Shown: positions 32,626-35,346 of the stretch, in pieces
Layout: every line of letters starts with the position of its first letter
How positions within the stretch are numbered: position 1 is the first letter of the stretch
DNA from: an uncultured Thiotrichaceae bacterium
Lineage (GTDB): Bacteria; Pseudomonadota; Gammaproteobacteria; Thiotrichales; Thiotrichaceae
Length of the DNA stretch: 39,493 nt
Reading direction: 5' to 3'
Assembly: GCA_902727985.1 (NCBI GenBank)
Contig: CACVAY010000084.1
Location: forward strand, 4,093-43,585
Translations under genes and position numbers: made by a program
The notes under the pieces: model-generated
The model's database searches: none
What the model saw: only the letters and a program-made list of their open reading frames with translations
What the model was told of the DNA's origin: nothing

Positions 32626-33225
32626 TCAGTAATCTCTTCGACCTTCAAAGGCATGAGATAATGTTCCACTATCTACATACTCCAACTCGCCGCCAATAGG
32701 CACGCCATGCGCAATTCGTGTGGATTTAATCTGGCGTTTATTTGCCAGCTCACTAATATAGTGGGCAGTCATTTCACCCTCTACCGATGGGTTAGTAGCG
32801 AGAATAAGCTCATCAATTTCTTCATTATCCAGCCGATGTTCCAAAACATCCAAACCAAGATCTTCAGGCCCAATACCGTCTAAAGGCGACAGCTTACCTA
32901 ACAAAACAAAATAACGCCCCTGATAAGAGGCCGTCTGTTCAATCGCAATAACATCAGAAGGATGCTCAACGATACAAAGCTGACGATAATTCCGCGCCTC
33001 ATTAGAACAAATTCGACATCGTGTATTTTCAGTCAAAGTACGACAAGACTCACAATGCCCAATATTTTCGATCGCAAGTTCTAGCGCTTTCGCCAATCGC
33101 ACACCAGATTGACGATCGCTCTCTAAAATGTGAAAAGCCATGCGCTGCGCAGTGCGTGCACCCACACTTGGCAGGCACTTCAGCGCATCAACTAACTCAC
33201 TCAGTAAAGACGTTTCTTGCATCAA
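32626..33225 (-). CDS. recR: Recombination mediator protein RecR
   Basis: RecR, with RecO and RecF, helps load RecA on single-stranded gaps. The 199-residue protein has an N-terminal helix-hairpin-helix ([14 protein letters not shown], 19-32), a zinc finger with C58, C61, C70 and C73, and a TOPRIM domain (about 81-175, with [13 protein letters not shown]). Length is standard (E. coli 201). The second Met may be the true start. It lies three bases after ybaB. Confidence 0.96.
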
Positions 33226-33228
33226 AAC

Positions 33229-33555
33229 CTAGAAAGGCATCTTCATGCCACCAGGTAAATTCATACCTGCTGTCACACCAGACATACGCTCTTCAGATTC
33301 TGATGCCAAACGTTGAGTCGCGTCGTTAATTGCCGCAGCAATCAAATCTTCCAACATTTCTTTATCATCAGCCATCAAACTGTCATCAATCGCAATACGA
33401 CGACACTCATGCGCGCCATTAATAGTAACTGAGACCAAACCACCGCCAGACTGACCTTGCACTTCCATCGCTGCGATTTCAGCTTGTACTTTCTGCATTT
33501 CTTCTTGCATTTTCTGGGCCTGCTTCATTATTCCGCCCAAACCACCTTTCATCAT
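33229..33555 (-). CDS. ybaB: Nucleoid-associated protein YbaB/EbfC
   Basis: YbaB/EbfC is a small dimeric DNA-binding protein associated with the nucleoid. The 108-residue protein has a helical N-terminus rich in Gln and Met ([17 protein letters not shown]), the strand pair [18 protein letters not shown]-like region and [13 protein letters not shown]. Its ATG overlaps the stop of the tau frame of dnaX (ATGA at 33552-33555), so translation may be coupled to ribosomes that read the shifted dnaX frame. Confidence 0.95.
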
Positions 33556-35188
33556 GACTCTTTCCTTTCTTTTTTAGGTTTTATCGAACCTGGGACAACT
33601 TCACCTCCCAGCTGCGATTGTAATTGTCGCACAAACGGATCTTGATAAATTATCTGCTCAAGCCGTTGCTGCGTCTCTTCTTGCACCCGATGATAGCGCA
33701 CCGAGGGCGTTTCCACCGTCACTTTGTTCACATTAATGATTAGGCGCATAGCCTTCCCCGCCCATACATCTAAAGCATTGCTTAAACTTGAGCGTGTTGC
33801 ACCTGTTAACAACTCAGCCCCTTCTTCTTCAAGGGTAAGCACCATCTCATTATCTTTAAATGAGTCCAATACACAGTGACTTGCTAATTGTGAGGCCAAA
33901 CCTGAAACATTCAATACCTCGCAGATTGCATGCCAGCCATTCTCTTCAGCACCTGAAATAGCGTTTGATGCATCAGTCTCTACGCGTTCAGGCTCTTTTA
34001 CCTCTATTTTTTCAAGCGGTGTTTCTTCACAAGGAATACTCTCTAACTGCTCACCCTGAACACGATCAGACTCAGGAATTTTTAGTTTTTTTTTTCAGTA
34101 CTCAAAGGCGCAACATCAAGCGGACGAAATGTCATCATCCGCAATAATAACATCTCAAATCCCGCTCGCGGATCGGGTGACAATGGCAAATCACGACGAC
34201 CATGTAAGGCAATTTGATAATACAACTGCGCATCTTCCATCGTTAAGCGATCAGCAATCTCTTTGATATGAGACTCAGGATTATCCATTGTCGGAATAGC
34301 TTGTAACACCGATACACGATGCAACATTGAAATCATCGCATCAGCAGCCGCTTCAAAATCAGCAACCTGCCCCGACATATCCTCAATGACACGCATCATA
34401 CGCTCGCCATCACCATCAATAGCTGCATTCAAGGTCTCAACCAACCAATCATGCGAAATATTACCCAACATATCACGCACTTCACCATCAGAAACTTTAC
34501 CACCGCCAAATGCAATGGCTTGATCTAACAAACTCAAGGCATCGCGCATACTGCCATCAGCAGCTCTTGCCAACTGTTGCAAGGCAAGCGCATCAAACTC
34601 CACTGATTCTTTAGTCAATAAAGTCACAAGATGCCCCGTAATCAGATCAACGGGCATGCGCTTGAGATTAAATTGCAAACAACGCGACAGAATTGTCACG
34701 GGCAACTTCTGCGGGTCTGTCGTTGCAAAGAGAAACTTTACATGCGGAGGCGGTTCTTCAAAGGTTTTCAACAAGGCATTAAAACTATGCGTAGAGAGCA
34801 TATGCACTTCATCAATCAGATAAACCTTAAAACGCCCACGTGCTGGCGAATAATGCACGTTTTCCAATAAATCACGCGTATCTTCGACTTTAGTTCGTGA
34901 TGCCGCATCCACCTCAATCAAATCGACGAAACGCCCTTCCGCAATCTCTTTGCAGCTAGAACACACACCGCAAGGTTCAGAGGTGATACCCGTTTCACAA
35001 TTTAATGCTTTCACCAAAATACGCGCAATCGTTGTTTTACCGACACCACGCGTTCCGGTAAATAAATAAGCATGATGTAAACGATCATTATCAAGCGCAT
35101 TAATCAGCGCGCGCAACACATGTTGCTGACCAACCATCTCTTTAAAATTCTGGGGGCGCCATTTTCGCGCAAGGACTTGATAACTCAT
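33552..35188 (-). CDS. dnaX: DNA polymerase III tau/gamma, -1 frameshift needed for tau
   Basis: DnaX is the clamp-loader ATPase. From ATG 35188 ([15 protein letters not shown], matching E. coli) the zero frame has the Walker [10 protein letters not shown], a zinc-finger [16 protein letters not shown], the DEVH Walker B region and the SRC arginine finger, and stops at 34082. That gives 368 residues, ending after domain III like a gamma subunit. The codons before the stop are GAA-AAA-AAA-AAC-TAA. A -1 shift in the ten-A run (34086-34095) enters a stop-free frame that continues as LKIPESD... through GWHAICEVL and a tau C-terminal domain ([32 protein letters not shown]) to 33552, about 545 residues in total. 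A TTG at 33914 begins only the C-terminal piece and is not a real gene start. A homopolymer sequencing error is the main alternative. Confidence 0.9.
34082..34096 (-). promoter_or_regulatory. Slippery A10 frameshift site in dnaX
   Basis: Minus-strand G-A10-C-TAA. In zero frame the last codons read A-AAA-AAC before UAA, a classical -1 slippery heptamer, and ten A is also long enough for RNA polymerase slippage. A small stem (CCTGA/TCAGG, about 34073-34077 with 34056-34060) lies just after. No strong upstream Shine-Dalgarno-like stimulator was seen. Confidence 0.75.
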
Positions 35189-35231: not shown

Positions 35232-35346
35232 GGTGGCAATCCGCACTAGCCGCATCCCGGCACCCGAATCCATCACTACCGTTGCTCCCTTCCGGGCCTG
35301 GCGGGGTTCGCAACTTCTCGTCGCGGGAGGACCAATGCAGATCACC
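35232..35346 (-). ncRNA. ffs: Signal recognition particle 4.5S RNA
   Basis: This is the RNA of the bacterial signal recognition particle, which with Ffh targets membrane proteins. The minus strand from 35346 reads GGTGATCTGC and ends with GATTGCCACC, so the ends pair. The conserved tetraloop and symmetric-loop region CCAGGCCCGGAAGGGAGCAACGG-type core (35279-35301) and the opposing GTGCCGGGATGCGGCTAG segment match the E. coli 4.5S RNA core GGUCCGGAAGGAAGCAGCC. The length is about 115 nt. It lies 44 bases before the dnaX start, a frequent arrangement in gammaproteobacteria. Confidence 0.93.

Follow-up and report, generated by a model that had tools for sequence, protein, structure and literature searches.

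The dnaX gene in the DNA stretch that we analysed (hereafter the window: 39,493 nt from an uncultured Thiotrichaceae bacterium) has reversed polarity: its zero frame gives gamma, and tau lies in the shifted frame. This polarity had been proposed in an earlier note on the same DNA and our results support it, the type itself being already published (PMC3711429; PMC5009743). The frames meet in a run of ten A's (A10), and we read the gene as a reversed-polarity dnaX with a transcriptional-slippage run, on which RNA-polymerase slippage would make both products (a probability of roughly three in four).

The border on the minus strand reads GAA-AAA-AAA-AAC-TAA, which confirms the A10 run and the immediate stop described in the earlier note. 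The zero frame starts at the ATG at 35188, and its 368-aa product, with the C-terminal residues STEKKN, contained Pfam matches to DNA_pol3_delta2, DNAX_ATPase_lid and DNA_pol3_gamma3. The last of these corresponds to domain III (residues 232–353), so that translation and Pfam agree with the claim of a 368-residue product ending after domain III. A tau-like −1 frame running into ybaB had likewise been claimed, and we found this frame open for 180 aa, with a PF12170 match (E 1e-15) and a terminal ATGA overlap (33552–33555). Both features of the two-ORF layout are thus present, namely a gamma that ends after domain III and a tau domain in the adjacent −1 frame. Because the final base of the tau-frame TGA is also the run's first A, a switch between the two frames is possible nowhere but within the A10. 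Adding one A to the run in silico produced a 545-aa tau and removing one A produced a 371-aa gamma-like product; the non-tau frames therefore stop at 368 and 371 aa, compared with 545 aa for tau. Beyond the run the tau frame was free of stops, while the other frames had 15 and 17. A profile search of the whole genome returned a single PF12170 match, so no second tau-supplying gene was found and a second dnaX gene was rejected as a source of tau; a plasmid megablast with dnaX gave no match. The long product, tau, is probably essential; by analogy with E. coli, where tau is required, it would be required in this organism as well. The coordinates of all features are given in Table 1.

Table 1. 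Features of the dnaX locus and its neighbours (window positions).
Feature	Position	Strand	Description and basis
small SRP RNA gene	35241..35337	-	RF00169; directly upstream of dnaX
dnaX zero-frame ORF	34082..35188	-	gamma form, 368 aa, domains I-III; ORF translation and Pfam
tau-frame (-1) TGA stop	34095..34097	-	its A is the first base of the A10
A10 slippery run	34086..34095	-	T10 on the + strand; sequence read, family conservation
zero-frame TAA stop	34082..34084	-	directly 3' of the run-ending AAC codon
tau-specific -1 frame ORF	33552..34094	-	180 aa; tau frame open from codon 364
tau domain V, PF12170 DNA_pol3_tau_5	33600..33959	-	Pfam match
ybaB	33229..33555	-	ORF list; ATG overlaps the tau stop as ATGA
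recR	32626..33225	-	ORF list; next gene

The gene neighbourhood is ordinary, and the two downstream genes are what we take to be ybaB and recR, names that rest on general knowledge and the gene order in an E. coli record. The earlier note had suggested that the reading frame also controls coupling to ybaB, a claim for which the comparison with relatives gave no support. The distance from the tau stop to the ybaB start was −4 in 2 out of 54 loci (the window included), −8 in another 2 and +6 to +145 in 35, with the ybaB start pattern not located in the remaining 15. We therefore rejected coupling as a family feature, given an ATGA-type overlap in just 2 of 54 loci and 15 not located.

We surveyed dnaX in 63 Thiotrichaceae-like genomes, and an order-level survey gave the same 63. 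A dnaX match at E 1e-3 was detected in 62 of them, all except G017. Five genomes (G007, G032, G033, G035 and G040) yielded only fragments or distant relatives, which left 57 loci; three loci without a tau match were cut by contig ends (L105, L107 and L136), leaving 54, and three carried only A7 (L085, L092 and L124), leaving 51 runs. L104, whose tau frame is broken downstream, was omitted from the alternative-frame test, which thus comprised 44 standard and 6 reversed genes; the sequences of L137 and L138 begin part-way into dnaX. All these genes are related, and the counts below are not independent. The best-matching named records to the window dnaX included Thiotrichaceae MAGs (up to 75% identity), a Cocleimonas MAG (73%), Thiothrix caldifontis (70%) and Thiolinea disciformis (66%). 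L128 was identical over 1600 bases to L010 (T. disciformis DSM 14473) and L115 over 1600 bases to L006 (T. caldifontis DSM 21228), which ties the surveyed family to Thiolinea and Thiothrix.

A run of A9–A11 at the domain III border was present in 51 out of the 54 analysable dnaX genes (46 with A10, 4 with A9 and 1 with A11), and the other three have only A7. The objection foreseen in the earlier note, that relatives might lack a homopolymer here, is therefore not borne out. The note had also proposed looking in relatives for a conserved A9–A11 run plus a stop: the run is indeed conserved, but no more than 6 of the 54 genes have a zero-frame stop just after it. The run starts in codon phase 0 in 42 genes, in phase 2 in 8 and in phase 1 in the window alone; being kept in all three phases, it is conserved as a nucleotide run and not as one peptide. 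Elsewhere in the 45 standard-polarity genes lysine is encoded by 881 AAA and 361 AAG codons (71% AAA), from which three AAA in a row would be expected in about one third of cases, and a run that stays uninterrupted and constant in length across almost all genomes is thus hard to blame on codon bias. Standard-polarity runs of at least A9 (n = 45) comprised 42 A10, 3 A9 and no A11, in a search that began at A9 and would let an A8 escape. Regarding individual loci, the L124 gene (from G056, a single-contig genome), with its A7 border, is interrupted in frame at codon 417, and its tau domain V follows further along that frame; this is either an assembly error or a broken tau. L104 (G030) has a standard A10 run, and its domain V match is split over two frames further downstream.

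In 43 out of the 44 standard-polarity family genes (the exception being L084), each of the two non-tau frames closes no more than 10 codons from the run, compared with a mean of 13.2 and a maximum of 23 of 44 genes in 5000 null draws from the same linkers. With one gene per genus, 7.7 of 8 had both close stops versus 2.6 under the null, and none of 3000 null draws reached 8. Taken separately, a stop within 5 codons was found in 41 of 44 genes for the frame reached by inserting one A (−1; null fraction 0.45) and in 42 of 44 for the frame reached by deleting one A (+1; null fraction 0.29). In the six reversed family genes, too, a single frame leads to tau and the other two are short.

Under the preferred reading, RNA polymerase would slip on the ten T's of the template and release mRNAs with 9, 10, 11 or other numbers of A's. 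The A10 (and A9) mRNAs would meet a stop just after the run and yield gamma of 368 or 371 aa, and mRNAs with one extra A (or two fewer) would join the frames and yield tau, of 545 aa in the case of one extra A. The run would then act as an element of conserved length, whatever its codon phase, at the domain III/IV border of almost every family gene analysed; small indels in or beside it would swap the templated product, and slippage would maintain both. For the window dnaX, we infer both slippage at the RNA level and its efficiency.

The six reversed genes out of 54 were those of the window (L082), L117, L128, L131, L132 and L133. Five of them need one extra A for tau and L131 (A11) needs one fewer; without L131, every reversed family gene requires the same −1 direction. 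In the window, L117, L132 and L133 the reversal is found with a run of the modal length, A10. An A10 in place of the A9 of L128 or the A11 of L131 would restore standard polarity, and these two reversals could be run-length mutations or homopolymer errors. L132 and L133 share one reversed A10 arrangement although their genomes are separate, which makes error unlikely there, and for this reason we consider the reversed type genuine in the family. A maximum-likelihood tree was built from the first 350 residues of DnaX (64 rows, 54 of them labelled for polarity, with L104, L124 and the A7 genes scored as standard), and it required a minimum of four changes between standard and reversed polarity. 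The window DnaX clustered with three genus mates of standard polarity (98/90). The remaining five reversed genes fell elsewhere in the tree, all of them in a single genus (g7). Two separate polarity changes are firm on this tree and four are the best estimate, weak forks inside g7 and several long rows limiting the firm number to two. The differences between L132 and L133 after the run numbered 23, 20 and 55 at codon positions 1, 2 and 3, for which reason the reversed tau frame looks to be under selection; the window and L083 differed at 85, 64 and 118 positions, respectively. L117 (G045) stands out by an alanine-rich tau-specific region of 357 aa and by a strong 3' structure (−24.5 kcal/mol, z −4.0) together with the only Shine–Dalgarno (SD)-like site of the family, and it may use ribosomal signals or combine the two kinds of signal.

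We lean, by a little, towards a wider reading of this series, in which the A10 would be a frame-agnostic dual-product switch: selection would act on the length of the run and on the non-tau stops and not on which product is templated, and the polarity of dnaX would drift without loss of either subunit. On this wider reading, genes that give tau directly and genes that give gamma directly would have drifted into one another several times in the family, by shifts in either direction.

Outside the family, a class-wide draw of 370 genomes matched dnaX at E 1e-80 in 353. The outside-family set comprised 142 loci (140 distinct, 136 of them reaching codon 470) and is an uneven sample, since its members are the loci that matched the query best and many come from Pseudomonas. 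Among these best matches, 5 out of 136 distinct loci had a run of at least A9 within codons 345–470, and in those five A9/A10 genes the non-tau frames stop about 4 to 13 codons from the first codon of the run. We also found one reversed dnaX outside the family, L171 (G198, codons 335–379), with an A9 and tau in the −1 frame. Short open frames (below about 455 aa) among the outside-family matches listed hit contig ends in L152 (G332), L168 (G131) and L170 (G422), combined an in-frame stop at codon 273 with a contig end in L169 (G328), and lay near a contig edge in G353 and G232; another belongs to the reversed L171.

When both strands of the 3.54-Mb window genome were searched for exact A10, six matches turned up, which fall at five separate places including dnaX. 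At a second place, L208:929-1873 (G000:C2), the A10 lies in the sense of a 314-aa ORF of unassigned function (...ARLKKKSRDE...), which is a candidate for a second case of slippage. The places in L211 (an A11, upstream of what is presumably dnaA) and L213 fall between ORFs, and the A10 in L209 overlaps just a 69-aa ORF.

The earlier note had left open whether the ribosome or RNA polymerase slips; we considered both, and the family comparison favours RNA polymerase, although both could contribute. In the ribosomal alternative, −1 frameshifting on A_AAA_AAC would make tau from RNA of templated length, and we regard this as rather improbable. The heptamer is correctly framed in the window dnaX, −1 is the shift needed in 5 of the 6 reversed genes, and a proven insertion-sequence shift operates on A_AAA_AAC without an established stimulator (PMC4066793). 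Reversed dnaX genes have also been discussed as ribosomal frameshifting, with one Chlorobium case having E. coli-like signals (PMC5009743). The only tRNA-Lys seen was tRNA-Lys(UUU), with 30 of the 31 listed tRNA matches scanned; the list is incomplete, some expected tRNAs being absent from it, and the observation is not decisive because there is no AAG in the run. In E. coli, however, A_AAA_AAC is far less shift-prone than A_AAA_AAG (PMC5009743), and it is the former that the window dnaX carries at the run. An SD-like site upstream of the run, of which E. coli has one, was found in 1 of the 51 family genes scanned, L117, and in none of the other 50, the window dnaX among them (background 0.065 per site). 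Structure 3' of the run scored z 0.20 and −0.48 in the window, and over the 51 genes averaged −0.44 compared with −0.03 in a control stretch (z below −2 in 7 versus 3 of 51), but the E. coli stem-loop region also scored just 0.17, so the test is insensitive and does not exclude a stem-loop. A mechanism that shifts only by −1 has no need of +1-frame stops, yet these lie as near as the −1-frame stops (within 5 codons in 42/44 and 41/44 genes, respectively). Furthermore, L131, if its A11 is correct, requires the opposite direction, and since it needs one A fewer a −1 ribosomal shift does not provide its tau. Slippage by RNA polymerase is thus favoured because of the three codon phases, the close stops in both frames, the opposite shift of L131 and the missing SD-like sites in 50 of 51 genes.

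Homopolymers of this length are error-prone, and the stop in the window dnaX could result from an error in sequencing or assembly; the real run would then be A11 or A8, with tau in the zero frame and gamma made by slippage as in the relatives. The genome of the window is a draft of 152 contigs, and dnaX has standard polarity in each of the four genus mates in which it was matched. With the 5' flank of the window run, however, standard polarity would need A11 or A8, and A11 was found in 0 of 45 standard runs (searched from A9), while L132 and L133 show the same reversed A10 in separate genomes; we consider such an error unlikely. Homopolymers also mutate fast, and a replication-slippage mutation might turn tau off in part of the population, in a decaying or phase-variable gene. 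Run counts alone cannot separate selection against replication slippage from selection against transcription slippage (PMC1088944). Nevertheless, the genome search gave no further tau domain, the tau frame is free of stops (0 versus 15 and 17) and retains its Pfam match, and the same layout recurs in relatives, all of which makes decay or phase variation very improbable.

The window resembles the two-ORF dnaX genes of the GeneTack study (Antonov et al. 2013) in that adjacent ORFs are joined by a −1 shift at a poly-A junction. That study reported 17 dnaX genes from 12 genera in which recoding is needed for tau; poly-A was present in 12 of the 17, nine had exactly 10 A's, and transcriptional realignment was proposed for those nine (PMC3711429). 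A 2014 paper mentions the same reversed type (PMC4066793). The Thiotrichaceae-like genes differ from the GeneTack set, as that set is described there, in that close genomes do not all have one polarity and that a shift in the opposite direction is needed in one relative. In the A9 dnaX of Thermus, transcriptional slippage is reported to give mRNA of mixed length, with stops near in both non-tau frames (PMC1088944; PMC5009743). Thermus thermophilus and the window (A9 and A10) have in common a run of at least nine A's and these close stops; in Thermus, however, tau is templated in a single ORF, whereas the window templates gamma and most of its relatives are Thermus-like in this respect. The E. 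coli dnaX is the same gene with the same pair of products, but its signals are A_AAA_AAG, an SD upstream and a stem-loop on the 3' side, and its shift leads to gamma, in contrast to the A10 plus C of the window, which lacks an SD-like site and whose shift leads to tau. For the Blochmannia dnaX, rescue of tau by transcriptional slippage at a poly-A frameshift was also proposed, although that frameshift lies further downstream, in the tau-only region, and was read as an endosymbiont frameshift mutation (PMC3017870). Finally, Shigella mxiE also obtains its longer product from two overlapping ORFs by slippage (PMC1088944), but it is a different gene with a U-run.

A dnaX that needs recoding for tau has thus been known since 2013, and the window adds another case. 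Among the titles listed in a literature search we found no account of a Thiotrichaceae dnaX case; the one paper retrieved for Thiothrix and this gene dealt with molecular markers. What is new is the family series, that is, related genomes with the same A10 run, opposite polarities and more than one swap. Gene callers may label such dnaX genes as truncated or frameshifted. The series offers a natural test of whether slippage is near-balanced, in which case polarity would be irrelevant, and of whether RNA polymerase or the ribosome is responsible. Tau organises the replicase, and DNA replication in the organism of the window would therefore rest on an apparent decoding error.
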